Source: Couchioplanes caeruleus (lineage in GTDB: Bacteria; Actinomycetota; Actinomycetes; Mycobacteriales; Micromonosporaceae). Taken from it: a stretch of 64,000 nucleotides of DNA. The stretch is taken from the NCBI RefSeq assembly GCF_023499255.1, contig NZ_CP092183.1, forward strand, positions 6,878,501 through 6,942,500, read 5' to 3'. This document shows positions 39,069-58,613 of this stretch, piece after piece (the first letter of the stretch is position 1; every line of letters begins with the position of its first letter). Below the pieces are notes generated by a model. It made no database searches. It was not told the DNA's origin and worked only from the letters and a program-made list of their open reading frames with translations. The translations under genes were made by a program, and so were the position numbers.

Positions 39069-40592
39069 TCAGCTGTCGAGGCGCTTGCGGACCGCGGCCA
39101 GCAGATCCTCCGCGGTGAAGGGCTTCTCGAGCAGCGCCACGCCCGGGTCGAGGGTGCCCTGCGAGGCCAGGACCGGCTGGGCGTACCCGGACATGTAGAG
39201 CACCCGGGTCTCGGGCCGTACGCCGGTGAGCCGCTCGGCCAGCTCCTTGCCCAGCATGCCGGGCATCACGACGTCGCTGACCAGCAGGTCGATCGTGCCC
39301 TCGTGCAGCGCCGCCACCTCGAGCGCCCGGGTGCCGCCGTCGGCCGACAGCACGTGGTAGCCCGCCCCGGACAGGATGCGCCCGGCCACGTCCCGCAGCG
39401 CCGCCTCGTCCTCGACCACGAGCAGCGTCTCGCCGTGCCCGAGGGTGGCGGCGGGCTCCGGTTCGGCCGGCTCCTCCGGGGCCTCCCCCTGCGAGGCCGG
39501 CAGCAGCACGGTGACGGTGGTGCCCACGCCCGGCTCCGAGGCGATGCCGACGCTGCCGCCGGCCTGGGTGGCGATGCCGTAGACCGTCGCCAGGCCCAGC
39601 CCGGCCGCCTCGTGGTTGGGCTTGGTGGTGAAGAACGGCTCGAACGCCCGCTCCACCACGTCCGGCGTCATCCCGCGGCCCGAGTCGCAGACCCGCAGCC
39701 GTACGTAGTCGCCGGAAGTCAGCTCCGGGTGCTCGCCGGGCGACAGGTGCGCGGCCGCGGTGTCGATGACGAGGCTGCCACCGCCGGGCATCGCGTCGCG
39801 GGCGTTCACGGCGAGGCTGACCAGCAGCTGCTCGATCTGACCCGGGTCACAGGTCACCGTGGGCAGCGTCGCGGCCGGGTTCGTGACCAGCCCGATGTGT
39901 TCGCCGAGCGTACGGCGCAGCAGCTCCTCGACCTCGCGGAGCACCTCGTTCAGGTCCAGCACCTGCGGCCGGATCACCTCGCGGCGGGCGAACTTCAGCA
40001 GCTGATGGGTGAGGCCGGTGCCCCGTTCGCCGGCCTTGACCACCTGGCGCGCGTCGGCCGCGATGGTGGCCACGTCCGGGCTGGGCGACTCGGCCTCCTC
40101 GATGACGAAGTGGGCGTAGTTCACGATCACGCCGAGGAGGTTGTTGAAGTCGTGCGCGATGCCGCCGGCTAGCTGCCCCAGTGCCTCCAGCCGCTGACTG
40201 CGGTGCCCCTGCGCCGCCGCCTCCAGCTGCCGGCGCTCGGTGACGTCGCGGACCACCGCCACGGTCAGCTCACCCTGCGCGGTGGAGACGACGGCCAGCG
40301 ACGCCTCGGCGGGGAACTCCGTGCCGTCGCGCCGGAGCACGCGCAGGGAGACCGTGCCCATCGGCCCGGCACCCATTCCCCGGCCCGAGCGCTTGGCCTC
40401 CTCGGGAAAGGCGTCCCGCGCGGCCTCGGTGAGCAACACGTCGGCGTGCTTGCCGAGCAGCTCGTCGCGGGGCCAGCCGAAGATCTCCTCGGCCCGGTCG
40501 TTGAGCAGGACGATCCGCCCCTCGTCCATGACGACGATGGCATCCGGGGCAGCCTGCAGAAGACCGCCGGACAGCTCCTCGGACCACTCCAC
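39069..40592 (-). CDS. Soluble PAS hybrid histidine kinase with receiver domain
   Basis: A 507-residue cytosolic signalling protein. A PAS domain spans about residues 8-120 (APDAIVVMDEGRIVLLNDRAEEIFGW). The phospho-acceptor is His147 in GGIAHDFNNLLGVIV. The ATPase domain shows N-box VSLAVNARDAMPGGG, DSGRGMTPDVVERAFEPFFTTK and GLGLATVYGI. The C-terminal receiver has EDE near 395 and phospho-Asp440 in LLVSDVVMPG. The order matches PAS-HisKA-HATPase-REC hybrid kinases. No membrane span, partner regulator or phosphotransfer gene is adjacent. GTG 40592 has GGGGTGAG ahead. It ends 26 bases before nadD. Confidence 0.93.
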   Translation of the reverse strand: MEWSEELSGGLLQAAPDAIVVMDEGRIVLLNDRAEEIFGWPRDELLGKHADVLLTEAARDAFPEEAKRSGRGMGAGPMGTVSLRVLRRDGTEFPAEASLAVVSTAQGELTVAVVRDVTERRQLEAAAQGHRSQRLEALGQLAGGIAHDFNNLLGVIVNYAHFVIEEAESPSPDVATIAADARQVVKAGERGTGLTHQLLKFARREVIRPQVLDLNEVLREVEELLRRTLGEHIGLVTNPAATLPTVTCDPGQIEQLLVSLAVNARDAMPGGGSLVIDTAAAHLSPGEHPELTSGDYVRLRVCDSGRGMTPDVVERAFEPFFTTKPNHEAAGLGLATVYGIATQAGGSVGIASEPGVGTTVTVLLPASQGEAPEEPAEPEPAATLGHGETLLVVEDEAALRDVAGRILSGAGYHVLSADGGTRALEVAALHEGTIDLLVSDVVMPGMLGKELAERLTGVRPETRVLYMSGYAQPVLASQGTLDPGVALLEKPFTAEDLLAAVRKRLDS

Positions 40593-45899: not shown

Positions 45900-47399
45900 T
45901 CACTCGTCGTCCAGGTCGTCGTCGTCCGTGACGAGGACGGGCTTGGCCGACATCGAGACCGTCGACACCGTGCCGTCCTCCGACATGTGCAGCAGCTCGT
46001 CGTCCGAGCGGATGCGGCGCGCCTTGCGGGCGGCCAGGCGCTCCGCGGCCGAGGCGCGGCCCGTGACGTCCTCGAGGCGGGCGTCCGTGCCGCGCGGGCC
46101 GGAGACGAACTCGCCCGCGTTGGGCTGCCAGTCGAACTCCTGCTCGGCGATGCGCACCGGGTCGCCGGCCTTCGCGCCCTTCTTCGCCAGCGCCGCCTCG
46201 ACCCCGACGCGCTCGAGCCGGTCGGACAGGTAGCCGACGGCCTCGTCGTTGTCGAAGTTCGTCTGGCGGATCCAGCGCTCGACCTGGACGCCACGGACGA
46301 CGTACACGCCGTCGGCGTCCTGCTCGATCGTGAAGCCCTTCTCGTCCACCGCGCGGGGGCGGACCACCGTACGCGTGGGCTCGATGACCGGGGTGGCCAG
46401 GCGGTGCGCGGCGACGGCCTCGGCCAGCGCGTACGTGAACTCCTTGAGCCCTTCCCGGGTGACCGCGCTGACCTCGAAGACGCGGTAGCCGCGGGCCTCC
46501 AGGTCGGGGCGGACCATCTCGGCCAGGTCCCGCCCGTCCGGGATGTCGATCTTGTTGAGCACCACCATGCGCGGCCGCTCCTCCAGCCCCCCGTACGCGG
46601 CCAGCTCCGCCTCGATGGCCTCCAGGTCGGCGATCGGGTCGCGTTCGATCTCGGGCGCCGCCGCGTCGAGAACGTGGACCAGCACCGAGGTGCGCTCGAT
46701 GTGCCGCAGGAACTCCAGGCCCAGCCCCTTGCCGGTGGCCGCGCCCGGGATCAGGCCGGGCACGTCGGCGACCGTGAAGGTCTCCTCGCCGGCCTGCACG
46801 ACGCCGAGGTTCGGCACCAGCGTGGTGAACGGGTAGTCGGCGATCTTCGGCTTCGCCGCGGAGATGACCGAGATCAGCGACGACTTGCCGGCCGACGGGA
46901 ACCCCACCAGCCCCACCTCGGCGACACTCTTGAGCTCCAGGACCACGTCGAACCGGTCGCCGGGCTCGCCGAGTTCGGCGAAGCCGGGCACCTTGCGCCG
47001 GGTGTTGGCCAGCGACGCGTTGCCGCGCCCGCCCCGGCCGCCACGGGCCACCTCGAAGGTGGTGCCCTCCCCGACGAGGTCGGCGAGGACCTCGCCCTCG
47101 GGGGTCTGCACGACCGTGCCGTTGGGCACCTTCAGGACCAGGTTCGCGCCGTTCGCGCCGTCCCGGTTGGCGCCCATGCCCCCGGTGCCGTTCTGCGCCT
47201 TGACGTGCGGGCGGAAGTGGAAGTCGAGCAGGGTGTGCTGCTGCGGGTCGACGGCGAGGGTGATGCTGCCGCCGTGGCCGCCGTCGCCGCCGTCGGGCCC
47301 GCCGAGGGGCTTGAATTTCTCCCGGCGTACGGAGACACAGCCGTGGCCGCCGTCACCTGCCTGCAGGTGCAGCACGACCCGGTCGACGAACGTAGCCAC
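45900..47399 (-). CDS. obg: GTPase Obg/CgtA
   Basis: A 499-residue ribosome-assembly and stress GTPase. The Gly-rich Obg fold covers about 1-158 ([33 protein letters not shown]). The G domain follows with G1 GFPSAGKSS, the G2 region [15 protein letters not shown]3 DVPGLI, and G4 NKID. The C-terminal OCT domain ([35 protein letters not shown]) is complete and is followed by an acidic tail ending DDDDLDDE. It lies downstream of rplU-rpmA, the standard order. Confidence 0.97.
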
Positions 47400-47480
47400 T
47401 TGGTAACTCCCACCTCAAACGCTGTGTCTTCCCCTGCCAGAACACCAGCACGGCCGTGCGGCTTCCCGATGGGGAAACGC

Positions 47481-47518
47481 CAGCGGGCCGCGGACCCCGT
47501 AAGGTCCACGACCCGCTG
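47481..47518 (-). terminator. Hairpin between rpmA and obg
   Basis: Outer stem CAGCGGG/CCCGCTG and inner stem GGACC/GGTCC, with a second G-C hairpin around 47528-47545, fill the 150-base gap between rpmA and obg. This may be an intrinsic terminator or attenuator that lets ribosomal protein genes be expressed more strongly than obg. Confidence 0.55.
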
Positions 47519-47549
47519 CGATGCTGTCGGCCGCCACGGCGGCCGGGTC

Positions 47550-47822
47550 TTACTCTGCCGAGGCCGAAGCCGCGACCGGCACGATGCTGATGGTCTTGCG
47601 GCCACGCTTGTGACCGAAGAGCACGTTGCCCGCGGCGAGCGCGAACAGCGTGTCGTCGCCACCGCGGCCGACCAGGTCGCCCGGGTGGAACTTCGTGCCG
47701 CGCTGCCGGACGATGATCTCGCCCGCGTTCACCAGCTGGCCGCCGAACCGCTTGACACCGAGCCGCTGGGCGGCGGAGTCACGGCCGTTCCGAGAGCTGG
47801 ATGCACCCTTTTTGTGAGCCAT
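47550..47822 (-). CDS. rpmA: 50S ribosomal protein L27
   Basis: A 90-residue ribosomal protein located near the peptidyl-transferase centre. It starts [16 protein letters not shown] and continues [23 protein letters not shown], which is diagnostic. There is no Firmicutes-type N-terminal cleavage extension. It lies 12 bases after rplU and ends with an Ser/Ala-rich tail (PVAASASAE). Confidence 0.98.
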
Positions 47823-47834
47823 GGCGGTTCGTCC

Positions 47835-48149
47835 CTACTTCCCGCTGGAGATGCCGGTCACCTTGACGAGGGTCAGCGGCTGACGGTGACCCTGGCGCTT
47901 GTGGTAGCCGGTCTTGTTCTTGAACTTGTGGATCCGGATCTTCGGACCCTTGGTGTGCTCGGCGATCTCGCCGGACACCGTCACGTTGGCAAGCTTGGCC
48001 GCATCGGTCACCAGGTTGTCACCGTCGACGAGGAGGACCGCGGCGAGCGTCAGCGAGTCGCCGGGCACACCCGCGAGCTTCTCGACCTCGATCACGTCGC
48101 CCTCGGCAACCTTGTACTGCTTGCCGCCGGTCTTGACGATCGCGTACAT
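47835..48149 (-). CDS. rplU: 50S ribosomal protein L21
   Basis: A 104-residue ribosomal protein, first gene of rplU-rpmA(-obg). The N-terminus is [20 protein letters not shown], and the conserved region [21 protein letters not shown] is near the C-terminus. It binds 23S rRNA domain I. Its 5' leader holds a small stem-loop that could serve in autoregulation. Confidence 0.98.
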
Positions 48150-48174
48150 GGGACGCGGACTCCCTGAGACTTAC

Positions 48175-48191
48175 GCAGCGAGGATCGCTGC
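48175..48191 (-). promoter_or_regulatory. Stem-loop in the rplU leader
   Basis: GCAGCGA and TCGCTGC form a 7-bp stem with a 3-base loop, 25 bases before the rplU ATG. Ribosomal protein leaders often bind their own product, but no known L21 leader structure is recognised here. Confidence 0.4.
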
Positions 48192-48348
48192 TTGGCGGAT
48201 GAAACTCGGTCCCGGCCCCGCAGGTCTCTGTCATGGCAGAAGCTCGCTCATGGCAGATCACTGCGTCACGCACGGGAACATGGCGCCATGAAAATGCGCC
48301 GTCAGAAAGAGTACTTCATGAGACTGCCGCTGCCCAAACCGGGGAGCG

Positions 48349-48879
48349 TCAGTCGGTCCCGCAGGCCTTCGACAGCGTCTCCTGCAGGCCGTCCAGCTTC
48401 TCGGCGTCGAGCTTGCGCACGTCGCCCTTGAGCGCCGACACCTGCTTGCTCATCACGCCCAGGGCCTTCTTCAGCTGCGGGTCCGAGGCCAGCTTCGCCA
48501 TGTCGCCCAGGGCGAAGGAGTAGTTCTGCACGTCCCGGGTCGTCTTCGCCTTGGCGGCGGCGACCGCGGCCTTGTCCTGCGCCGACTCGGCGTCGATCAG
48601 CAGCTTGAGGTCCTGGGCGAAGTTCTTCGCGGCGTCACCGCCGGTCTTCGCGGCCTGGTCGCAGATCGCCTTCGTGTTGCCCTTGAGCGCGGCGTCGCCC
48701 TTGCCGGCCGCCGACGAGCGGGGTGCCGGTGAGCCGCCGGAGGCGGGCGCCCCGGCCGAGGAGCTGCCCGCACCCGCCACGGGCGTACCCGCGGCCGAGG
48801 GCTCGGCGGACTTGTCGGTCGAGCAGGCGGTGAGCAGGAGAGCGCTGCTCAGGACCGCCGCGCACAGAAGGCGTCGCAT
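48349..48879 (-). CDS. Putative lipoprotein with helical C-terminal domain
   Basis: A 176-residue exported protein with lipobox LLTAC (Cys19). A Ser/Ala/Gly/Pro-rich linker runs to about residue 62 and is followed by an alpha-helical domain with two Cys, at CDQAAKTGG and KACGTD near the end. The pattern resembles small actinobacterial lipoproteins of unknown function. The gene is between rplU and the RNase E/G gene on the same strand, but with 199 bases to rplU, so it is probably a separate transcript. Confidence 0.78.
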   Translation of the reverse strand: MRRLLCAAVLSSALLLTACSTDKSAEPSAAGTPVAGAGSSSAGAPASGGSPAPRSSAAGKGDAALKGNTKAICDQAAKTGGDAAKNFAQDLKLLIDAESAQDKAAVAAAKAKTTRDVQNYSFALGDMAKLASDPQLKKALGVMSKQVSALKGDVRKLDAEKLDGLQETLSKACGTD

Positions 48880-48998
48880 GATGCTCCTACAGGGGGATGA
48901 GCGGGGGGATCACGAGACTAGCCGACATAGATCATCGGACATGGAGCGGGCGGCCCCAGCAGCACTTTCTGCCAGGACCGCCCGGAACGCCACACTTC

Positions 48999-51900
48999 TC
49001 AGGGTCGCGTACGCCGCCGTGCGCCACCGCGCCGGGAGCGACGCCGTCCGCCGGCGCCCGCGCCGACGGACCCGTCGTCGTCCTCGTCCTCGTCCTCGTC
49101 GGCCGCGTCCGGGTCGTCCGCACCCGTCAGCTGCAGCGGCTCCGTGCCGTCGGCCTCGTACCGCGACAGGTCGTAACCGCTGATGTCGTAGTCGTCGTCA
49201 TCGTCGTCCGGGGAGAGCTTCGGCGCGGGGCTGATCACGCCCGAGCCGGCCGCGACGATCCCCGAGCCGGCCGGGGGCAGCCCCGCCGTTTCGGCCGCCG
49301 GGTCGTCGGCCACCGCCTGCACGGTCACCGGCTGCTCCGCGATCGGCTCCTCGGCCGCCACGACCTCGGTCTCGGCCGGGGCCTGCTCGCCGCCACCGCC
49401 GCGACGGCGCCGCGACTTGGCCGGCTGGGGCGGGGCCTCCGTACGCGCGGCCGCCGCCACCGCCTTCACCTGGTTGCCCGCACCCGTACCGGCCGAGCGC
49501 TTCTCCGGCACCGGCTCGGTGTGGATGATCACGCCACGGCCCTTGCAGTGGTCGCAGGTCTCGCTGAACGCCTCGAGCAGCCCGGCGCCGATCCGCTTGC
49601 GGGTCATCTGCACGAGCCCCAGCGAGGTGATCTCGGTGACCTGGTGCTTCGTCCGGTCCCGGCCCAGGCACTCGGTGAGCCGCCGCAGCACCAGCTCGCG
49701 GTTGCTCTCCAGCACCATGTCGATGAAGTCGATCACCACGATGCCGCCGATGTCGCGCAGCCGCAGCTGCCGGACGATCTCCTCGGCCGCCTCGAGGTTG
49801 TTGCGGGTGACCGTCTCCTCGAGGTTGCCGCCGGCGCCCGTGTACTTGCCGGTGTTCACGTCGACGACGGTCATCGCCTCGGTACGGTCGAAGACCAGGT
49901 GGCCGCCCGAGGGCAGGAACACCTTGCGGTCCAGGCCCTTGAGGATCTGCTCGTCGATGCGCTTGTCCGCGAACACGTCGCCCCCGCCGGTGTAGCGGTG
50001 CATCCGCTCGACCAGGTCGGGCGAGACCGAGTTCAGGTAGTTCTCCAGCTCGCCGTACGCCTGGTCGCCCTGCACGATCAGCTCGCGGAAGTCCTCGTTG
50101 AAGAGGTCGCGGACGACGCGGATGACCAGGTCGGGCTCCTCGGAGAGCGGACGCGGCGCGGCACCCTCGGCCGCCTTCGCCTGGATCTCCTCCCACTGCG
50201 CCTGCAACCGCTTGACGTCGCGGGCCAGCTCGTCCTCGCTGGCGCCCTCGGCCGCCGTGCGCACGATCACGCCGGCGCCGTCCGGTACCAGCTTCTTCAG
50301 CACGTCGCGCAGCCGCTTGCGCTCGTTGTCGGGCAGCTTGCGGCTGATGCCGGAGGCGTTCCCGTTCGGTACGTACACCAGGTGCCGGCCGGAGAGCGCG
50401 ATGTGGCTGCTCAGCCGGGCACCCTTGTGCCCGATCGGGTCCTTGGTGACCTGGACCAGCACCGAGTCGCCGGAGCGCAGCGCCTGCTCGATCGAGCGCG
50501 CGCGCCCCTCGAGCCCGGTGGCGTCCCAGTTGACCTCGCCGGCGTAGAGGACGGCGTTGCGCCCCCGGCCGACGTCGACGAACGCGGCCTCCATGCTCGG
50601 CAGCACGTTCTGCACCTTGCCGAGGTACACGTTGCCGACCATGGTGCCGGAGGTCGACCGGGAGACGTAGTGCTCGACCAGGATCCCGTCCTCGAGCACG
50701 GCGATCTGCGTACGGTCGGGCTTCTGCCGGACGACCATGACCCGGTCGACGGCCTCGCGGCGGGCCAGGAACTCCGACTCGCTCAGGATCGGCGGGCGGG
50801 TCCGGCGCTGCTCGCGGCCGTCCCGGCGGCGCTGCCGCTTGGCCTCCAGCCGGGTGGAGCCGGAAACGCCCTGCACCTCGTCGCTGCGGCGCGGCTCGCG
50901 CACCCGCACGACCGTGTGCACGCCGTCCTCGACCCCGCCGGACTCGGCGTCGCCCGAACCCTTGCGGCGCCGGCGCCGGCGGCGGCGGGTGACGCCGTCG
51001 CCCTCGTCGGCGTCGTCCTCGTCGCCCTCGGCCTCGGCCTCGGCGGCGTCCTCGGGCTGCTCGGCAGCGCCGTCACCCTCGTCGGCCTCGTCGGACGGGC
51101 CCTTGCCGCGGCCACGGCCCCGGCGTCCCCGGCGTCGCCGCCGGCGGCCGGCGCTGTCCTCGTCGTCGTCGTCCTCGTCGGCGCCGTCCTCGACGTCGTC
51201 GGCGCTCTCGTCGGTCTCCTCGAGCAGGGGAGCCTCGACGGCCTCGACCGCGGTGCTCTCCTCGGCCTCGGCCGCGGCGCCACCCCGGCGGCGGCGCCGG
51301 CTCTTGCGGGCGCCCTCGGCGGGCTCCTCCGCGGCGGCGGGCGCCACGGGCTCGGCGACGGCCTCGGTGGTCTCGGCGACCGGCTCGGCGGCGGCAGCGG
51401 CGGCTCCGCGCCGGCTGCGGCGGGTCGTCGGCGCGGGCTCGGCCTCCGGGTCCGGCGGCATGAACAGCACGGCGGGCGGCAGGGCGGCCTTCCGGCCGCG
51501 GCGCGGCTTCGGCTCCTCCTCGACGAAGTCGTCGTCGAGCGGCAACACCCCGATGACGGGTACGCCGGCAGCAACGTCCTGCCCGTTCTCGTCCTCGTCC
51601 TCGGCGACCGGCTCCTCGACGGCGGGAACCGGAACCGGCGTGGACACGGCCGGCGTGGACACGGCCGGCGTCTCGTCCGCGGAAGCGGCCGGCGGCTCGG
51701 CGGGCGCGGCGGCCGGCACGGCCTTCTTGCGCGCCCGGCTCCGGGTGGCCTTCACGGGTGCGACCGGCTCGGCGTCGCTGAGCAGGCTCTCCGCGACGGC
51801 GGCGGGGTCCTCCGCCAGCGCCTCGGCAGCAGCCGGAACGGCCTTCTTGCGCGCCCGGCTCCGGGTGGCCTTCACCGGGGGTGCGGCAGCGGGCTCCGCC

Positions 51901-52103
51901 GCGGCCGCGGCGTCGCTGGCGTTCGCCGCCTCGTCGGCGGCGCCGGGCTCCGCGCCGGGCGCGTCCACCGGCACAGCCGGCGGCGTGGCCTTGCGGCGCG
52001 GGGCGCGGGTGCGGCGCGCAGGGGCAGCGGTCTCGGTGGCTTCAACGGTGGGAGGCGTACCCGCCTCGTCCCGTTCACCACCCTGTGGCTCGTTATCGAG
52101 CAT
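48999..52103 (-). CDS. rne: Ribonuclease E/G family endonuclease
   Basis: A 1034-residue RNA decay enzyme. The catalytic core lies near residues 440-900: S1-like region (GNVYLGKVQNVLPSMEAAFV), SVLVQVTKDPIGHKGARLSSH, the DNase-I-like metal site VVDVNTGKYTG (about 745) and the Zn-link CDHCKGRG. About 430 residues precede the core, rich in Ala/Pro/Glu with acidic and Arg-rich patches (GRRRRRRGRRGRGRGKG), and a tail of about 130 residues follows. Such flanking disordered arms are normal in actinobacterial RNase E and recruit RNA or partners. ATG at 52103 with GGAGAG is chosen; 37 more codons upstream are open. Confidence 0.95.
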   Translation of the reverse strand: MLDNEPQGGERDEAGTPPTVEATETAAPARRTRAPRRKATPPAVPVDAPGAEPGAADEAANASDAAAAAEPAAAPPVKATRSRARKKAVPAAAEALAEDPAAVAESLLSDAEPVAPVKATRSRARKKAVPAAAPAEPPAASADETPAVSTPAVSTPVPVPAVEEPVAEDEDENGQDVAAGVPVIGVLPLDDDFVEEEPKPRRGRKAALPPAVLFMPPDPEAEPAPTTRRSRRGAAAAAAEPVAETTEAVAEPVAPAAAEEPAEGARKSRRRRRGGAAAEAEESTAVEAVEAPLLEETDESADDVEDGADEDDDDEDSAGRRRRRRGRRGRGRGKGPSDEADEGDGAAEQPEDAAEAEAEGDEDDADEGDGVTRRRRRRRRKGSGDAESGGVEDGVHTVVRVREPRRSDEVQGVSGSTRLEAKRQRRRDGREQRRTRPPILSESEFLARREAVDRVMVVRQKPDRTQIAVLEDGILVEHYVSRSTSGTMVGNVYLGKVQNVLPSMEAAFVDVGRGRNAVLYAGEVNWDATGLEGRARSIEQALRSGDSVLVQVTKDPIGHKGARLSSHIALSGRHLVYVPNGNASGISRKLPDNERKRLRDVLKKLVPDGAGVIVRTAAEGASEDELARDVKRLQAQWEEIQAKAAEGAAPRPLSEEPDLVIRVVRDLFNEDFRELIVQGDQAYGELENYLNSVSPDLVERMHRYTGGGDVFADKRIDEQILKGLDRKVFLPSGGHLVFDRTEAMTVVDVNTGKYTGAGGNLEETVTRNNLEAAEEIVRQLRLRDIGGIVVIDFIDMVLESNRELVLRRLTECLGRDRTKHQVTEITSLGLVQMTRKRIGAGLLEAFSETCDHCKGRGVIIHTEPVPEKRSAGTGAGNQVKAVAAAARTEAPPQPAKSRRRRGGGGEQAPAETEVVAAEEPIAEQPVTVQAVADDPAAETAGLPPAGSGIVAAGSGVISPAPKLSPDDDDDDYDISGYDLSRYEADGTEPLQLTGADDPDAADEDEDEDDDGSVGAGAGGRRRSRRGGARRRTRP
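51718..51875. repeat. Duplicated 38-base segment in the RNase E/G N-terminal arm
   Basis: 38 identical bases at 51718-51755 and 51838-51875, exactly 120 bases (40 codons) apart, encode VKATRSRARKKAV twice. The basic motif pair may be an RNA-binding or nucleoid-binding patch. Identity at all third positions suggests a recent duplication or gene conversion. Confidence 0.9.
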
Positions 52104-52235
52104 GGGGCGCTCTCCAGTTCTGGCGGCCCCGGGCGCGGGTGAGCGCTGCCACGCAGGGTCGCCGCAAGTTTTTCGGTCCCGACCGTCGTCGGACGGGCTT
52201 CCGAAGTCTGCCAACGCGGGCGCCGGCCGAACCGG

Positions 52236-53009
52236 TCAACGCCCTCCGATGGGTGCGTCCTCGCGATCCGCGTCCAACGGATCGACGATCTCCCCCTGCG
52301 GGGTGAGCGAGCCCTGGGCCAGCCGGGTCACCCGTGGGGGCACCGGCGGCTCCAGGCCGGCCACCACATGCAGGCCGGACAAGACGTCATCGGGCCGTAC
52401 GGCGGGCGTGACCTGCCGCACGACAAGGTCGATTATCGCACACCGTGCCGCCCCGGCCCCGGAAGGTGCGCCAGACTGCTCGGTCACAGCGAAGAACGCA
52501 ACTGCATTTCGGGCGTCGAACGAGCGGCGCCCCTGCTTCGTCATGCGCTCGACCAGCACTTCTTCGGCCGCGAGGAACGCCTCGACGGCCGTGGCCGCCA
52601 CCGCCGGCTCCACCTCGGGCAACTCGATCAGCCACCGGGACGCGTCGATCCGGTCGGCCAGGCTGCCCTCGCGCGCCACCACGGCGTCGAGGACGTCCAG
52701 GCCCGGCGAGAGCGCCGCGTCGAGCGCCGTACGCAACTGCTCCGGGTCCACCTCGGCCTGCAGCCCGATCTCCAGGTACTCCGCCTCGCTCCCGACGCCG
52801 GTCGGCGCGGCACTCGCGTACGAGATCTTGGGGTGTGGGGTGAAGCCCTGGGAGAACGCGATCGGGACCGCGGCACGCCGCAGGGCCCGCTCGAAGGCTC
52901 GCGCGAAGTCGCGGTGCGAGGTGAAACGCAGCGGGCCGCGCTTCGCGTAGCGCAGGCGGATCCGCTGGACGACCGGCGCCTGACCGCCGACGGGCTGGTT
53001 CTTGGCCAT
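52236..53009 (-). CDS. Radical-SAM-linked DUF2344 protein (TIGR03936-type)
   Basis: A 257-residue protein with the family pattern RIRLRYAKRGPLRFTSHRDFARAFERALRRA and PIAFSQGFTPHPKISYASA. These proteins occur beside, or fused to, the B12-binding radical SAM protein found immediately upstream here (1 base between the genes), and may handle its substrate. The biological reaction is unknown; a role in RNA or ribosome-linked modification has been suggested because the pair is next to RNase E/G, L21 and L27 in most actinobacteria. Confidence 0.92.
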   Translation of the reverse strand: MAKNQPVGGQAPVVQRIRLRYAKRGPLRFTSHRDFARAFERALRRAAVPIAFSQGFTPHPKISYASAAPTGVGSEAEYLEIGLQAEVDPEQLRTALDAALSPGLDVLDAVVAREGSLADRIDASRWLIELPEVEPAVAATAVEAFLAAEEVLVERMTKQGRRSFDARNAVAFFAVTEQSGAPSGAGAARCAIIDLVVRQVTPAVRPDDVLSGLHVVAGLEPPVPPRVTRLAQGSLTPQGEIVDPLDADREDAPIGGR

Positions 53010-53010
53010 G

Positions 53011-54954
53011 TCAGGCAGGCACTCCCAGACTCTTGACGGGGGTCAGGGGCAGGAGCTTCTTGCCGGTCGGGCCGATCTGGATCTCCGTGTCCATGGACGG
53101 GCACACGCCGCAGTCGAAGCACGGCGTCCAGCGGCAGTCGTCCTGCTCGTACTCGCCGAGGGAGTCCTGCCAGTCCTGCCAGAGCCAGTCCTTGTCCAGG
53201 CCGGAGTCCAGGTGGTCCCAGGGCAGCACCTCGAGCTGGTCACGCTCCCGGGTCGTGTACCAGTCCAGGTCGACACCGAAGTCCGGCAGGACCTCGGCGC
53301 ACGCCTCGACCCAGCGGGCGTACGAGAAGTGCTCGGACCAGCCGTCGAAACGCCCGCCCTTGTCCCAGACGCGCCGGATGACCTTGCCGACCCGGCGGTC
53401 GCCGCGGGAGAGCAGGCCCTCGATCAGCGACGGCTCGCCGTCGTGGTAGCGGTAGCCGATCGCCCGGCCCAGCGACCGGTCGCTGTTGATCTCCTGCTTG
53501 AGCAGCTTGAGCCGGTGGTCGATGACCTCGGGCCGCTCCATGGCCGCCCACTGGAACGGGGTGTGCGGCTTGGGGACGAACCCACCGATCGAGACCGTGC
53601 AGCGGATGTCCTTGGTGCCCGCGGCGGCCCGGCCGGCCCGGATCACCTCGTGCGCCATCTGCGCGATCTCGAGCACGTCCTCGTCGGTCTCGGTGGGCAG
53701 GCCGCACATGAAGTACAGCTTCACCTGCCGCCACCCGTTCGAGTACGCGGTGACGACCGTCCGGATCAGGTCCTCCTTGGTCACCATCTTGTTGATGACC
53801 TTGCGGATCCGCTCGGAGCCACCCTCGGGCGCGAACGTGAGGCCGGTGCGCCGCCCGTTGCGGGACAACTCCTGCGCCAGGTCGATGTTGAACGCGTCGA
53901 CCCGGGTGGACGGCAGCGACAGCGAGACGTTGGTGTCGGCGTACTGCTGGGCCAGGCCCGAGCACATGTCGCCGATCTCGGAGTGGTCGGCGCTGGACAG
54001 CGAGAGCAGGCCGACCTCGGAGAAGCCGGAGAACTCCAGGCCCTCCTTGACCATCTGCCCCACCGTGGTGATCGACCGCTCCCGCACCGGGCGGGTGATC
54101 ATGCCGGCCTGACAGAACCGGCAGCCCCGGGTGCAGCCGCGGAAGATCTCCACGGCGTACCGCTCGTGGACCGTCTCGGCCAGCGGGACCAGCGGCTTCT
54201 TCGGGTACGGCCAGGCGTCGAGGTCCATGGTCGTGCGCTTGGCCACCCGGAACGGCACGTCGGGGCGGTTCGGCACGACGCGCTGGATCCGGCCGTCCGG
54301 CAGGTAGTCGACGTCGTAGAAGCGCGGCACGTAGATGCTCTCCGTACGCGCCAGACGCAGCAGCAGCTCCTCGCGGCCGCCCGGGCAGCCCTGGGCCTTC
54401 CACTCCCGGATGATGCCGGTGATCTCGAGGACCGCCTCCTCGCCGTCACCGAGCACGGCGGCGTCGATGAAGTCGGCGATCGGCTCCGGGTTGAAGGAGG
54501 CGTGCCCGCCGGCGAGCACGATCGGGTCGTCGTCGCCCCGGTCGGCCGCGTCCAGCGGAATGCCGGCCAGGTCCAGGGCGGAGAGCATGTTGGTGTAGCC
54601 GAGCTCCGTGGCGAACGAGATGCCGAGCACGTCGAATGCCTTCACCGGGCGGTGCGCGTCGACCGTGAACTGCGGGACGCCGCGCTCCTTCATCAGCGCC
54701 TCGAGGTCCGGCCAGACCGCGTACGTCCGCTCGGCCAGCACGTCGGGCTGCTCGTTGAGCACCTCGTACAGGATCTGCACGCCCTGGTTGGGCAGGCCCA
54801 CCTCGTACGCGTCCGGGTACATCAGCGCCCAGCGCACGATGGTCGCGTCCCAGTCCTTGACGACGGCGCCGAGCTCGCCGCCCACGTACTGGATCGGCTT
54901 GCTGACCCTGGGCAGCAGCTGCTCGAGCTGAGGAAAGACGGAAGCGACGCTCAT
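53011..54954 (-). CDS. B12-binding-domain radical SAM protein (TIGR03960-type)
   Basis: A 647-residue protein. The N-terminal cobalamin-binding-like region contains MYPDAYEVGLPNQGVQILYE and VLAGGHASFNPEPIADFIDA. The radical SAM core has the FeS motif CTRGCRFC in VEIFRGCTRGCRFCQAGMI, and LSLSSADHSEIGDM. A C-terminal Cys cluster (CFDCGVC) may bind a second cluster. The substrate is unknown; family members pair with the DUF2344 protein encoded downstream. It begins 19 bases after the STAS gene stop, so it may be transcribed with the stress module. Confidence 0.93.
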   Translation of the reverse strand: MSVASVFPQLEQLLPRVSKPIQYVGGELGAVVKDWDATIVRWALMYPDAYEVGLPNQGVQILYEVLNEQPDVLAERTYAVWPDLEALMKERGVPQFTVDAHRPVKAFDVLGISFATELGYTNMLSALDLAGIPLDAADRGDDDPIVLAGGHASFNPEPIADFIDAAVLGDGEEAVLEITGIIREWKAQGCPGGREELLLRLARTESIYVPRFYDVDYLPDGRIQRVVPNRPDVPFRVAKRTTMDLDAWPYPKKPLVPLAETVHERYAVEIFRGCTRGCRFCQAGMITRPVRERSITTVGQMVKEGLEFSGFSEVGLLSLSSADHSEIGDMCSGLAQQYADTNVSLSLPSTRVDAFNIDLAQELSRNGRRTGLTFAPEGGSERIRKVINKMVTKEDLIRTVVTAYSNGWRQVKLYFMCGLPTETDEDVLEIAQMAHEVIRAGRAAAGTKDIRCTVSIGGFVPKPHTPFQWAAMERPEVIDHRLKLLKQEINSDRSLGRAIGYRYHDGEPSLIEGLLSRGDRRVGKVIRRVWDKGGRFDGWSEHFSYARWVEACAEVLPDFGVDLDWYTTRERDQLEVLPWDHLDSGLDKDWLWQDWQDSLGEYEQDDCRWTPCFDCGVCPSMDTEIQIGPTGKKLLPLTPVKSLGVPA

Positions 54955-54973
54955 GGGACTCCAGGGTACGCGG

Positions 54974-55318
54974 CTACCGGTTCACCTCTTCCGCGGCCTG
55001 CCGCAGGTCCGTGGCCAGAAGATCGTCGCGGAACGCGCACAGCTGCAGCGTCATCCGGGCGGGCCCGGACTCCCCCACCACCAGCCGGATCGGGGTGCCG
55101 TTGCGGTCCAGGTCACCCACGAGGGAGTCGAGCAGCCGCACGCCCGCGCTGTCCAGGAACGAGACGGCGGTCAGGTCGATGAGCACCGCGCCCGCCCGGC
55201 CGGTGTACCGCACGATCTCGCGGCCGATCGCCGGGGCGTTCGCCAGGTCGATCTCACCGGCGAGGCGGACCACCGCGGCCGCGCCGGCCTTCGCGAAGGT
55301 CACCCACTGGTCGGTCAT
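54974..55318 (-). CDS. STAS-domain anti-anti-sigma factor (RsbV-like)
   Basis: A 114-residue single STAS domain. It shows VVRLAGEIDLANAPAIGREI and the phosphorylation-site loop VSFLDSAGVRLLDSL, with the conserved Ser after Asp. In partner-switching systems the unphosphorylated form binds the anti-sigma kinase and frees the sigma factor. Its ATG overlaps the stop of the upstream phosphatase/kinase gene (ATGA), so the phosphatase domain of that protein probably dephosphorylates this one. No sigma factor gene is nearby. Confidence 0.92.
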   Translation of the reverse strand: MTDQWVTFAKAGAAAVVRLAGEIDLANAPAIGREIVRYTGRAGAVLIDLTAVSFLDSAGVRLLDSLVGDLDRNGTPIRLVVGESGPARMTLQLCAFRDDLLATDLRQAAEEVNR

Positions 55319-57816
55319 CGCACCTCTCCGCGGGAACGCCGCATGGTCACCGTCGTCCCGTCCGTACGGTCGAACTTCACGTCGTCCATCACCTGGTGGA
55401 TCAGTTGCAGGCCGCGCCCGCGGGACAGGTCGGCGCCCGCCGCCTGCCAGTCGCCGCGATCGGTCACCCGGATCTCGACGGCCTCCTCGGAGATCGTGGC
55501 GGTGACGTCGACGATGCCGAACGGGTCGTTACGGTACCCGTGCTCGATGGCGTTCGCGACCGCCTCCGAGCCGGCCAGCAGCACCGCCTGGGTGCAGTCC
55601 TCGTCGAGGCCGTGCGACAGCAGCCAGCCGCGCAGGTCCTTGCGGAGCAGCGCTATCTGCACCGGATCGGCGCCGATGGAGCGCTCCAGCCGGTCCTCGG
55701 TGCCGATCGCCAGGCAGAGCAGGCAGACGTCGTCGCCGTGCTCGCGGCCGACCAGGCTCTGCGCCAGGCCCGCGGTGAGGCCGGGCAGCGGGGCGTCGCG
55801 CCGGCCGGCGTACGCCCGGGCCAGCATCTCGAAGCCGGCGTCGATGCGGCGGTTCCGGCGCTCGATCAGCCCGTCGGTGTAGAGCAGCAGCCGGGTGCCG
55901 GCCGCCAGCGGCGTACGGTGCTCGACGCGCGTCCGGCGCCCCGCGTGCGAGCCGAGCGCGCCGGAGCGGCCGTCGAGCAGGTAGCGCGGGGAGCCGCCCG
56001 GCTCGGCGAGCAGCGGCGGCAGGTGCCCCGCGCAGGCGTACGTCATCTCGCGGGTGGTCAGGTCGACCTCGGCGTACGCGACCGTGGCCATGCGCGCCGA
56101 CTCGACCCGTTCGACGAACCGGTCCAGGCGTTCCAGCAGCCGGGCCGGGCCGGCCTCGGCCGAGGCGAGGGCGCGGATCGCGCTGCGCAGCTGGCCCATG
56201 GTGGTGGCCGCGTCGATGCCCCGCCCGACCACGTCGCCGACCACCACGGCCAGCTTGTCCGGGGTGATCAGGAACGCGTCGAACCAGTCGCCGCCGACCT
56301 CGAGGTCGTGGGCGGCCGCCTGGTAGTGGGTCTCCACGGCGAAACGCGGGTCGCTGGGCAGGTCGCCGGTGAGCAGGCTGCGCTGCAGCGTCCGGGCGAT
56401 GGCCCGTTCCTGCTCGTAGAGCCGGGCGTTCTCCAGCGCGAGCGCGGCCCGGTCGGCCAGGTCGGTGAGGAAGGCGGTCTCCTCGGCCGTACGCCGGCCC
56501 GCGGCCGCCCGCAGCGCGAGGGTGCCCAGCACCTTTCCGCCCACGCTCAGCGGCAGCACGGCGCAGTCGAGGGCAGCGGCGGGCTCGGCGAACTCGGCCT
56601 TGCCGTTGGCCACGACGAGGGCGGTCCGCTCCGCGAGCCGGTCGGGGTCGGGCTCGGGACCGCCGGCGTCGGCGACCAGGCCGGCCGGGCCGATCTGCAG
56701 GCGTACGGCGGCCCACTCGGCGATCTCGGGAACCAGCCGCTCGGCCAGCCGCCGGGCCCGGGGCATGAGCCGCTGCAGCTCCTCGAGGGAGCGGGTGGTC
56801 TCGGCGAGGAACGTGGCGCGCGCCTCGCGGCGGCGGGCGGCGTCGTACAGGCGGGCCCGGTCCAGCGCCTGCCCGGCCTGATGGCCCAGGAGCCGGACGA
56901 CGCGCAGCTCGCTGTCGCTGAGCTCGCGCTCCTCGGCGAAGCCGAAGCAGAGCACCCCGAGCACCTCGGTGCCGATGGCCTCGCCGGTGAAGCCGGTCGT
57001 CAGCGGCAGCATCACCGCGGTGCGGTAGCCGCCCGTGCGCATGGCCGCGGCGAGCGCCGGGAAGTGCTCCTCCGCCTCGGCGATCGAGCCGAAGACGTGC
57101 AGGTCGCCGCGGCGGGCCACCTCGGCGACCGGGCGGGACGAGGAGAGCGGTACGTCCGGGTACACGAGCGCGTCGGAGCCGGCGCCGGCCAGCGCGACGA
57201 GCAGGTCGCGGTCCTCGTCGACGAGCCACACGCTGCTGCCGGCGGCGCCGAAGGCCGCGGCGGGCGCCCCGATCACCGCCTCGGCGACCTCGGCCGCGGT
57301 GGGTGCGGCGGCCAGGTCGGCGACGACCTGCTGCAGCGCGCGTACGCGTTTCTCGGACGCCTCGGCCGCCCGCCGGGCGGTGAGCAGCTCCCGCTCGTAC
57401 TCCCGGCGGTCCGTGGCTTTGAAGATCATGGTCCGCACCACCCGTGGCAGGCCGGCGGGGTCGCGGCCGAGCGCCGAGTTGACCAGGATGGGCAGCTGGG
57501 TGCCGTCCGCACAGATCAGCTCCATCGCCAGCTCGTGGACGCCGTCCTGCATGGCGAGCAGCGGCGCGTAGTGCGTCTCGTAGTAGATCCGGTCGCCGGC
57601 GCCGAGCAGGTCACGGAACCGCCGCCGGCCGACCAGCTCGGCGCGGTCGTAGCCGGACCAGTCCAGGAACGTTCTGTTGACCCGGACGATCGTCCCGTCC
57701 GGCAGGGTCGTCAGATAGCCGCACGGCGCGTTCTCGTAGAGGTCCCCGGGCTCCTCCTCCCAGGGCACACGCAGGTCCTGCGTCACGTCCGGCCCACCAC
57801 CGCCGTTCTCGGTCAT
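55315..57816 (-). CDS. PAS-GAF-GAF-PP2C phosphatase fused to anti-sigma-type HATPase (RsbP/RsbU-like)
   Basis: An 833-residue multi-domain switch. PAS about 20-135 (NAPCGYLTTLPDGTIVRVNRTF); GAF about 165-310 and a second about 325-460; PP2C/SpoIIE phosphatase about 465-690, with EVGGDWFDAFLI, VVVGDVVGRGIDAA and LLYTDGLIERRNR; HATPase_c about 700-833, with AGSEAVANAIEHGY and GRGLQLIHQVMDDV. Metal-binding Asp residues of the phosphatase are present. In Bacillus, RsbP (PAS-PP2C) is activated by the hydrolase RsbQ; here an RsbQ-like gene ends 5 bases upstream. The extra kinase domain could act as an RsbW-type anti-sigma factor in cis. Confidence 0.92.
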   Translation of the reverse strand: MTENGGGGPDVTQDLRVPWEEEPGDLYENAPCGYLTTLPDGTIVRVNRTFLDWSGYDRAELVGRRRFRDLLGAGDRIYYETHYAPLLAMQDGVHELAMELICADGTQLPILVNSALGRDPAGLPRVVRTMIFKATDRREYERELLTARRAAEASEKRVRALQQVVADLAAAPTAAEVAEAVIGAPAAAFGAAGSSVWLVDEDRDLLVALAGAGSDALVYPDVPLSSSRPVAEVARRGDLHVFGSIAEAEEHFPALAAAMRTGGYRTAVMLPLTTGFTGEAIGTEVLGVLCFGFAEERELSDSELRVVRLLGHQAGQALDRARLYDAARRREARATFLAETTRSLEELQRLMPRARRLAERLVPEIAEWAAVRLQIGPAGLVADAGGPEPDPDRLAERTALVVANGKAEFAEPAAALDCAVLPLSVGGKVLGTLALRAAAGRRTAEETAFLTDLADRAALALENARLYEQERAIARTLQRSLLTGDLPSDPRFAVETHYQAAAHDLEVGGDWFDAFLITPDKLAVVVGDVVGRGIDAATTMGQLRSAIRALASAEAGPARLLERLDRFVERVESARMATVAYAEVDLTTREMTYACAGHLPPLLAEPGGSPRYLLDGRSGALGSHAGRRTRVEHRTPLAAGTRLLLYTDGLIERRNRRIDAGFEMLARAYAGRRDAPLPGLTAGLAQSLVGREHGDDVCLLCLAIGTEDRLERSIGADPVQIALLRKDLRGWLLSHGLDEDCTQAVLLAGSEAVANAIEHGYRNDPFGIVDVTATISEEAVEIRVTDRGDWQAAGADLSRGRGLQLIHQVMDDVKFDRTDGTTVTMRRSRGEVR

Positions 57817-57821
57817 GAATC

Positions 57822-58613
57822 TCAGACGTACGCCTTGATGGCGGCCACGGTCTCGGCCGGGGCGCTGAGGTTCGGGCAGTGCCCGGTCGCATTCATGGCC
57901 ACCAGTGTGCTCCCCTTCAGGTGCGCGTGCACGTAGTCGCCGACCGCGGCGGGCGCGATGACGTCGTCGGTGCACTGCAGGATCAAGGCGGGCGTACGCA
58001 CTTTCGCGAGGTCCTCGCGGTTGTCGGACAGAAACGTCACGCGCGCGAACTTCTTGGCGATCTCGGGGTCGGTGGCACAGAAGCTGTTGGTCAGCTCCCG
58101 GCCGAGCTCCGGCCGGTCGGAGTTGCCCATGATGACCGGCGCCATCGCGCTGGACCAGCCCAGATAGTTGCTGTCCAGGGACTCGAGCATCGACTCGATG
58201 TCGCTCGTACGGAACCCGCCGACGTAGTCCGCCGTGTCGATGTACCGGGGCGACGGGCCGACGAGGACGAGCTTGGCGAAGCGGCCGGGTTCCCGTGCGG
58301 CGGCGAGCACCCCGATCATGGCGCTGACCGAGTGCCCGACGAAGATGACGTCGTGCAGGTCGAGGTCGTGGATGATCTCCAGCACGTCGGACGCGTACCC
58401 GTCGAGCGTCGCGTAGCGCTCGTCGTCGTACGCCCGCAGATCCGACCGCCCGGCGCCGACGTGGTCGAACAGCACGACCCGGTGGGTGCCGGTGAACTCC
58501 GGGGCCACGAACCGCCACATGTTCTGGTCGCAGCCGTAGCCGTGGGCGAACAGCATCGGCTGTCCGTCCGGCTTCCCGCTGATGTTGACGGCGTGTCGCT
58601 GAATCGTGCTCAT
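57822..58613 (-). CDS. RsbQ-like alpha/beta hydrolase
   Basis: A 263-residue alpha/beta hydrolase strikingly similar, along its whole length, to Bacillus subtilis RsbQ as I remember it: FAHGYGCDQNMWRFVAPEF, VVLFDHVGAGRSDLRAYD, TLDGYASDVLEI, the nucleophile Ser95 in FVGHSVSAMIG, the Asp near 217 in LQCTDDVIAPAAVGDYVH, and His245 in TGHCPNLSAP. RsbQ makes or supplies a small hydrophobic molecule that activates the PAS domain of RsbP under energy stress. The product gene lies directly upstream of the PAS-PP2C gene, the same pairing as rsbQ-rsbP. Plant KAI2/D14 receptors belong to the same family. Confidence 0.9.
   Translation of the reverse strand: MSTIQRHAVNISGKPDGQPMLFAHGYGCDQNMWRFVAPEFTGTHRVVLFDHVGAGRSDLRAYDDERYATLDGYASDVLEIIHDLDLHDVIFVGHSVSAMIGVLAAAREPGRFAKLVLVGPSPRYIDTADYVGGFRTSDIESMLESLDSNYLGWSSAMAPVIMGNSDRPELGRELTNSFCATDPEIAKKFARVTFLSDNREDLAKVRTPALILQCTDDVIAPAAVGDYVHAHLKGSTLVAMNATGHCPNLSAPAETVAAIKAYV

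Follow-up and report, generated by a model that had tools for sequence, protein, structure and literature searches.

A published relative of the locus considered here is the RsbQ-PAS module, in which the hydrolase RsbQ is coupled to PAS-phosphatases (Nadezhdin, Brody and Price 2011, PMC3183031). That study demonstrates direct contact between RsbQ and PAS, keeps two models on the question whether RsbQ makes a diffusible small molecule, regards 'energy stress' as a cue assumed without experimental support, and, in 2011, called the cue that the module reads mysterious. A kinase, a phosphatase and a STAS domain are found together in Mycobacterium tuberculosis Rv1364c, which, according to a passage of PMC7693655 that cites Greenstein 2009, both phosphorylates and dephosphorylates the STAS domain of its own chain; its kinase activity has also been reported as lost, going by the title of Sachdeva 2008. 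Among the matches listed in our literature search, we found no published account of an RsbQ-PAS partner with a fused kinase.

Organization of the locus

The window analyzed here, a stretch of 64,000 nucleotides from Couchioplanes caeruleus (contig NZ_CP092183.1, positions 6878501-6942500), carries three module genes, all on the minus strand. An RsbQ-type alpha/beta hydrolase of 263 residues (57822..58613) ends 5 bases before the gene of an 833-residue PAS-GAF-GAF-PP2C(SpoIIE)-HATPase_c_2 protein (55315..57816), an RsbP-like phosphatase with a fused RsbW-type kinase domain, whose stop overlaps by 4 bases (ATGA) the start of a gene for a STAS protein of the anti-anti-sigma type (54974..55318; 114 residues). 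Coordinates and Pfam agree on this order and spacing, as given in an earlier reading of the DNA letters (the sequence-only reading). The overlap between partner and STAS is possible from an available start codon at 53/65 kinase-type loci of the genus, counted with a script that took the start codon nearest to a 4-base overlap. A tight array follows on the same strand (48999..54954), consisting of a TIGR03960 radical SAM gene, TIGR03936 and RNase E/G; the radical SAM gene lies on the same strand at 64 of the 65 genus kinase-type loci, with a gap of 19-37 bases after STAS in 56/60 measurable ones, and module and array possibly form one transcript.

RsbQ and its PAS partner

In a PDB phmmer search, the best solved-structure match of the hydrolase among the best 60 of 267 is B. 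subtilis RsbQ (1wom; 309 bits, 1.6e-91), well above the best KAI2/D14 chain (204.7 bits) and the best arylesterase (55 bits); these scores confirm its proposed RsbQ character and rule out a generic hydrolase. The triad predicted for it is in place (Ser95, Asp217, His245) and is kept in 140/140 aligned RsbQ sequences, the window's included. It is the only RsbQ-grade copy in the source genome, where the next hydrolase scores 49 bits, and its AlphaFold2 model has a mean pLDDT of 95.6. The sequence-only reading had also pointed to the plant karrikin and strigolactone receptors; they are indeed relatives, but because the RsbQ match is about 105 bits better than that to the best KAI2/D14 chain, the likeness is one of kinship and extends to nothing beyond it.

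In the partner, Pfam finds PAS_9, two GAF stretches, a SpoIIE-type PP2C domain and HATPase_c_2; it is not the simple PAS-coiled coil-PP2C chain of RsbP, the two GAF domains and the HATPase being extra, and its PP2C domain falls outside a 44-member PAS-PP2C clade (support 0.99). Trees of RsbQ, PAS and PP2C have low support at the nodes that would decide whether the kinase-type partner arose once. The PAS domain is the most N-terminal one (the match begins at about residue 26-31; by residue mapping it spans residues ~24-139, 57400..57747, minus strand), in a gene directly downstream of RsbQ. Mapped against L230, a B. subtilis-group sequence taken for comparison, it carries equivalents of C10, L13, F55, Y59, P62, E72 and P86, the residues at C10/L13/L48/Q53/F55/C56/Y59/E72/P86 being C, L, L, R, Y, Y, H, E and P. 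This fits the consensus of the RsbQ-PAS class as worded in the text of PMC3183031, whose per-position letters are in a figure. The class residues recur in 78/78 kinase-type partners (the window's and 77 others), with C10, L13 and P62 identical, an aromatic residue at F55 and His at Y59.

Both catalytic domains appear intact when the two partners from RsbQ-less genomes are added to these 78. The PP2C metal-site aspartates (D510, D648, D695, D696) are kept in 79-80/80, as are the N, G1 and G2 box residues of the ATP-binding domain (E751, N755, D786, G788, G800, G802), the N-box Asn in 79/80. The best NCBIfam models for the HATPase are the RsbW equivalogs, yet it scores 48.1 bits where the cut-off is 145. 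An RsbP-type PAS domain and an intact kinase domain, both anticipated earlier, are thus borne out by the PAS class residues and the conserved ATP-binding boxes.

The STAS protein and its association with the kinase

The 114-residue protein matches Pfam STAS above the cut-off (7.3e-15) and NCBIfam ant_ant_sig at 48.7 bits, below the cut-off of 53.45. Its phospho-serine motif reads FLDSAG, and the DSxG serine is present in 76/76 others (75 by pattern; the remaining one, L145, reads YLDSAG), in line with the phosphorylatable partner that had been proposed. A STAS gene lies behind 76/77 kinase-bearing partners versus 7/50 kinase-less ones, where it is divergent and sited at the partner stop; the latter count comes from a profile search, with Pfam run on three of the 7, and is 0/50 by single-sequence search. 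The link between kinase and STAS is strong, not exclusive: exclusive linkage is ruled out by these seven, and because a STAS gene can stand at the stop of a partner that has no kinase, it may go with the phosphatase and not with the kinase. One genome (G062) retains the kinase and has lost the STAS gene; a search for a close STAS elsewhere in that genome found none.

Conservation and loss of RsbQ

That the pairing should be conserved in related genomes holds: RsbQ is present in 65/67 genomes of the genus, and the PAS-GAF-GAF-PP2C-HATPase partner in 65/65 of these carriers (window's included in both). The window's own place apart, the same type of partner stands at 65/81 other RsbQ places of the genus, with a STAS gene behind 64 of the 65, and within the named set of RsbQ loci a PAS protein is the chosen downstream frame at 73/80. 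Recurrence across genus genomes and RsbQ loci rules out chance adjacency of the module genes. RsbQ can occur without a PAS partner, since 11 further copies, triad intact, stand alone in 10 genus genomes. At the 12 solo loci (these 11 and L224) we found no neighbor common to most that might substitute for the PAS partner; frames with a GGDEF motif, judged by eye, lie near 5 of them.

Two genus genomes lack RsbQ and retain the remaining module. Their partners depart from the consensus at 6 and 7 of the 62 PAS columns that are at least 95% conserved, where the 65 paired genus members (the window in, L145 out) have a mean of 0.65 departures and a maximum of 5; in the other four domains their counts lie inside the paired range. 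One of them (G010) has Asp at the F55 position and Arg at that of Y59; the other (G061, a draft of 220 contigs) keeps Tyr and His there. Residues 74-94, a stretch picked after the data had been viewed, hold 4/6 and 4/7 of the departures (one-sided P 0.02 and 0.04). PAS drift shows less clearly in mean identity than in the departures counted at conserved columns: in both proteins PAS has the lowest value or nearly so, but low values also occur for GAF2 in G061 (rank 3 of 65) and for the HATPase in G010 (rank 4 of 65), and for PAS minus the other domains the two rank 4 and 2 of 65. Taken with the kinase-STAS association and the conserved active sites, the comparison supports a layout in which RsbQ-PAS contact, for which the departures speak indirectly, would be the input, and a kinase/phosphatase pair acting on one STAS protein the output.

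Sigma factors in the genome

None of the 29 matches to SigB/F/G-type sigma factors, strong or weak, falls within the window, so a linked sigma factor of these types is ruled out as the target, which had been said not to lie nearby; seven SigB/F/G-type sigma factors are encoded elsewhere in the genome, and a skim of short stretches around them assigned none as the target. The genome also holds 16 places that match the RsbP-like protein and 6 that match the STAS query, the window's own among both. A paralogue in the genome (L173) has PP2C, HATPase and STAS matches within a single frame.

Discussion

On balance we favor a reading of the locus as an RsbQ-PAS sensor that drives a PP2C phosphatase and a fused kinase on the adjacent STAS protein. 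Its architecture, its conservation, the kinase-STAS association, the intact active sites and the PAS-specific departures upon RsbQ loss are all read from the sequences. The paralogue L173, with its three matches in one frame, and the two activities described for Rv1364c also speak for this reading. Against it count the seven kinase-less partners with a STAS gene, the loss of STAS in G062, the residues kept at F55 and Y59 in G061, the low mean identities of GAF2 and HATPase in the RsbQ-less proteins, the report of a lost Rv1364c kinase activity and the lack of a linked sigma gene. A bipartite RsbQ-PAS sensor would be joined to a GAF-GAF-PP2C chassis and an RsbW-type kinase, with the substrate gene adjoining. 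RsbQ, its active site occupied by a ligand or substrate, would dock on the F-alpha helix of PAS; the resulting change, together with GAF input, would pass through helical linkers to the PP2C domain, which would dephosphorylate the STAS protein, while in the absence of a signal the C-terminal HATPase of the same polypeptide would rephosphorylate it. Unphosphorylated STAS would bind either this HATPase or a distinct anti-sigma factor, thereby freeing a target encoded elsewhere, most probably among the seven sigma factors. The ligand, the direction of the switch, the action of both activities on this STAS protein and the sigma target are what we infer here; an energy-stress cue and a diffusible RsbQ product, which the sequence-only reading had drawn from Bacillus, are conjectural. 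Only tentatively would we add that RsbQ on PAS toggles a single polypeptide between its kinase and phosphatase states toward the same STAS protein, as in a bifunctional histidine kinase but on serine, the sensor half being detachable, so that the PAS surface drifts upon RsbQ loss while the GAF-PP2C-kinase-STAS switch stays.

Sigma factors are the usual output of partner switching, which counts against the alternative that survives best, namely that STAS acts on another target, for example the radical SAM protein or RNase E of the same array, or a developmental regulator; we consider it unlikely, if a serious contender. It draws on the lack of a sigma gene in the window, on the near-constant position of the module before TIGR03960 at 64/65 genus loci, and on the STAS domains described, in the part of PMC10733313 that deals with them, for a spore-tied sigma/anti-sigma pair of A. 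missouriensis. The radical SAM neighbor is absent from the fetched stretch at 11/12 kinase-type loci outside the genus, however, and the position within it may therefore be an accident of insertion.

We are more doubtful of a Bacillus-like operon in which the fused HATPase serves purely for docking or as an anti-sigma domain, the phosphorylation of STAS being left to a separate RsbW. The shortfall of the HATPase against the RsbW equivalogs would agree with this, as would the many partner-switching genes in the genome and the seven kinase-less partners with a STAS gene of their own, in one case (L162) with a HATPase encoded separately 561 bases further along; against it stand the kinase boxes, intact nearly throughout, and the strength of the kinase-STAS association. 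That the hydrolase serves metabolism and simply shares a transcript with a regulator, as its solo copies might suggest, is very improbable in view of the PAS protein downstream of most RsbQ loci, the PAS-specific departures that accompany RsbQ loss, and the RsbQ-PAS contact seen in B. subtilis by two-hybrid and pull-down (PMC3183031).

With the preferred reading of a sensor-driven phosphatase and kinase, sensor, phosphatase, kinase and substrate would sit in three adjacent genes, and the system could be reconstituted with purified proteins, free of the Bacillus network. From the kinase-STAS association one can predict the substrate among the STAS proteins, otherwise hard to tell in genomes with several of each; the two natural losses of RsbQ indicate PAS positions for probing its contacts; and kinship with KAI2 and D14 adds to the interest of the cue.

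Among known systems, C. difficile RsbZ and S. coelicolor OsaC likewise feed GAF/PAS input via linkers into a PPM phosphatase, with no RsbQ partner in the portion of PMC12143880 that describes them. M. tuberculosis Rv1364c also combines sensor, PP2C, GHKL kinase and STAS, but in one chain (PAS-PP2C-kinase-STAS) with the STAS domain fused; the sections on it describe one N-terminal PAS and mention neither RsbQ nor a GAF pair. Kinase-less arrays (L162-L166, L169, L201) share RsbQ, a PAS-PP2C partner and STAS at the partner stop; they differ in that the partner has neither GAF pair nor kinase, the STAS is divergent (CDSSG), and one has the separate HATPase gene. KAI2 and D14 of plants belong to the alpha/beta hydrolase relatives but match less well than RsbQ, and no PAS partner is known in their pathway. 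B. subtilis RsbQ-RsbP and the RsbQ-PAS module (PMC3183031) come closest, with RsbQ directly upstream, an N-terminal RsbP-type PAS, PP2C output and the characteristic PAS residues; as outputs the text of that study gives phosphatase, histidine kinase and diguanylate cyclase, and the two GAF domains, the C-terminal RsbW-type HATPase and the linked STAS are additions in the present locus. New in this work are the kinase-STAS association, the conservation of the catalytic sites and of the STAS phospho-serine, and the PAS departures in the two genomes that lost RsbQ. The module is an Actinoplanes-type form of the known sensor/phosphatase pair, whose partner also bears a kinase and has the gene for its likely target behind it; RsbQ with a kinase-bearing partner and STAS is a conserved version of a switch whose kind was already known.

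Organization and genomic setting of the module

The module runs from 58613 to 54974 of the window on the minus strand, and its layout agrees with the sequence-only reading: an α/β hydrolase of 263 aa (57822..58613) is followed, after a gap of 5 bases, by a PAS-GAF-GAF-PP2C-HATPase protein of 833 aa (55315..57816; the kinase-type partner), whose gene overlaps by 4 bases that of a STAS protein of 114 aa (54974..55318). The genome is a single 8.42 Mb contig. Directly after the module (45900-54974) comes a tight array from TIGR03960 through TIGR03936 to RNase E/G, then probable L21 and L27 frames (judged by eye) and Obg, which in B. subtilis is required for SigB stress activation. The radical SAM neighbor TIGR03960 is common to 64 of the 65 kinase-type loci of the genus, at 19-37 bases from the STAS gene in 56 of 60 measurable loci (start codons picked by script). 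On the same strand, at 39069-40592, lies a PAS histidine kinase with a C-terminal receiver domain.

Identity of the hydrolase and of the PAS domain

Among PDB entries, the hydrolase sequence matches B. subtilis RsbQ best (1wom; 309 bits, 1.6e-91) and the bacterial protein 3qvm next (235 bits); among the best 60 of 267 PDB matches, the top KAI2/D14 chain reaches 205 bits and the top arylesterase 55 bits, which rules out a generic hydrolase. The triad Ser95, Asp217, His245 is kept in all 140 aligned relatives (the window counted), the predicted structure has a mean pLDDT of 95.6, and the genome holds only this one RsbQ-grade copy, its next hydrolase scoring 49 bits. By these matches the protein is an RsbQ, and the RsbQ character first proposed for it holds.

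Nine PAS residues are reported to set the RsbQ-linked class apart (PMC3183031). At these positions (C10, L13, L48, Q53, F55, C56, Y59, E72, and P86, numbered by the B. subtilis-group RsbP L230) the window has C, L, L, R, Y, Y, H, E, and P. C10, L13, and P62 are identical in all 78 kinase-type partners (the window plus 77), which also all have an aromatic residue at F55, where F55A weakens RsbQ binding (PMC3183031), and His at Y59. By these residues, the window's PAS domain belongs to the RsbQ-linked class.

Distribution of the pairing

Of the 67 genus genomes, 65 (the window's among them) carry RsbQ (E <= 1e-40), at 82 places; the 81 besides the window, all fetched, comprise 65 with a kinase-type partner, 5 with PAS-PP2C, and 11 without a PAS partner. 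The pairing is conserved: all 65 RsbQ-bearing genus genomes have a kinase-type locus. Among 300 genomes sampled from the family (E <= 1e-60), 97 have RsbQ, 65 of them being the genus itself; every one of the 33 places that lie in other genera was fetched, and they divide into 12 kinase-type and 21 PAS-PP2C. The phylum sample has RsbQ in 23 of 396 genomes (the window's counted), and besides the window it has 25 places, all of them fetched: 24 with a kinase-less PAS partner and one with no PAS partner. In the best 80 of at least 593 confirmed named loci, mostly from other phyla, the downstream frame picked by an automatic test was a PAS protein in 73. A rough classification of these gives 22 PP2C on a profile match, 23 GGDEF and 7 histidine-kinase-like on motifs alone, and 21 unclassified; the kinase profile matched none of the 79 downstream frames chosen. 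For 45 RsbQ-PAS pairs, PMC3183031 reports phosphatase, histidine kinase, or diguanylate cyclase outputs. Within the genus, family, phylum, and best-80 named samples, the kinase-fused form was found only in the window's family; among the openly licensed papers listed, none deals with it, judged from titles and abstract openings.

The 11 PAS-less extra copies, with intact triads, lie in ten genus genomes (L085, L089, L090, L095, L096, L098, L101, L113, L114, L120, and L151); ten group in one clade (support 1.0) that is nested close to the RsbQ of the window. These copies are free-standing RsbQ proteins.

Association of kinase and STAS protein

Partners are present at 127 loci, 77 with HATPase and 50 without. 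A STAS gene lies behind 76 of the 77; since these loci are related, they are not independent events. With the window's STAS as sole query, none of the 50 kinase-less partners has a match behind it; by profile, a divergent STAS with a CDSSG motif turns up behind 7 of the 50, starting at most 16 bases from the partner stop (L162-L166 and L169 from genus-g8 genomes of the same class, L201 from the window's family), three checked by Pfam. RsbQ, phosphatase, and STAS can therefore co-occur without a fused kinase, and the association with the kinase is strong, not exclusive. These seven arrays are an unfused counterpart of the window's operon; in L162, HATPase is encoded separately, by a gene 561 bases past the stop of the partner.

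PP2C and kinase retain their catalytic residues in 79-80 of 80 sequences, and the STAS DSxG motif its serine in 76 of 76. One locus (L116, genome G062) has lost the STAS gene and kept the kinase-fused partner; no close STAS was found elsewhere in that genome. In a paralogue in the window's genome (L173), PP2C, HATPase, and STAS matches lie within a single frame.

In the PP2C tree, whose deeper nodes are weak and which leaves out three kinase-less partners without a usable PP2C match, one clade (support 0.99), with no kinase-type partner inside, unites 44 of the 47 kinase-less actinobacterial partners; L154, L156, and L167 are placed nearer the kinase type. The RsbQ-PAS sensor appears to have been joined to a different PP2C chassis, perhaps on more than one occasion, which fits the modular-exchange view put forward in PMC12143880.

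Natural loss of RsbQ

At 1e-40, RsbQ is missing from two genomes of the genus, G010 (2 contigs) and G061 (220 contigs), but both still encode the complete partner and the STAS protein. In G010, the remnant of a decayed RsbQ, split over two frames, lies just upstream of the partner; none was found in the stretch upstream of the partner in G061. These two genomes are the only exceptions in the family sample, where RsbQ is present in 75 of 77 genomes with a partner at E <= 1e-120 (the kinase-type loci of G531 and G569, both with RsbQ, are weaker than this threshold).

Across the 62 PAS columns that are at least 95% conserved, the two RsbQ-less proteins depart at 6 and 7, against a maximum of 5 and a mean of 0.65 in paired genus members (n=65, including the window and leaving out L145, a diverged second copy); in GAF1, GAF2, PP2C, and HATPase, 4 to 65 of these 65 members depart at least as often as the RsbQ-less proteins do. 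The F55 and Y59 positions are occupied by Asp and Arg in G010 and still by Tyr and His in G061. Mean identity gives a softer picture: PAS ranks 0 and 2 of 65 in the RsbQ-less pair, and identity is also low outside PAS (GAF2 of G061 rank 3, HATPase of G010 rank 4). These two genomes are suggestive of a PAS surface maintained by RsbQ, the rest of the switch being retainable without it (n=2).

Proposed mechanism and comparison with known systems

RsbQ would most likely dock on the Fα helix of PAS, and the change would pass via helical linkers to PP2C, which would dephosphorylate the STAS protein; the fused kinase would undo this dephosphorylation. The STAS target is probably one of the seven SigB/F/G-type sigma factors that exceed the family cut-off in the genome; none is linked to the module, in line with the earlier observation that the target is not nearby. 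A role in energy stress is not established, because PMC3183031 itself calls this assumption unsupported.

At locus L014, a SigB/F/G-type sigma gene stands beside a convergent 243-aa frame, a pair whose likeness to SsdA/SipA of A. missouriensis (PMC10733313) is limited to size and layout. In M. tuberculosis, Rv1364c has the domain set of the module in one chain and is reported to phosphorylate and dephosphorylate its own STAS domain (PMC7693655).
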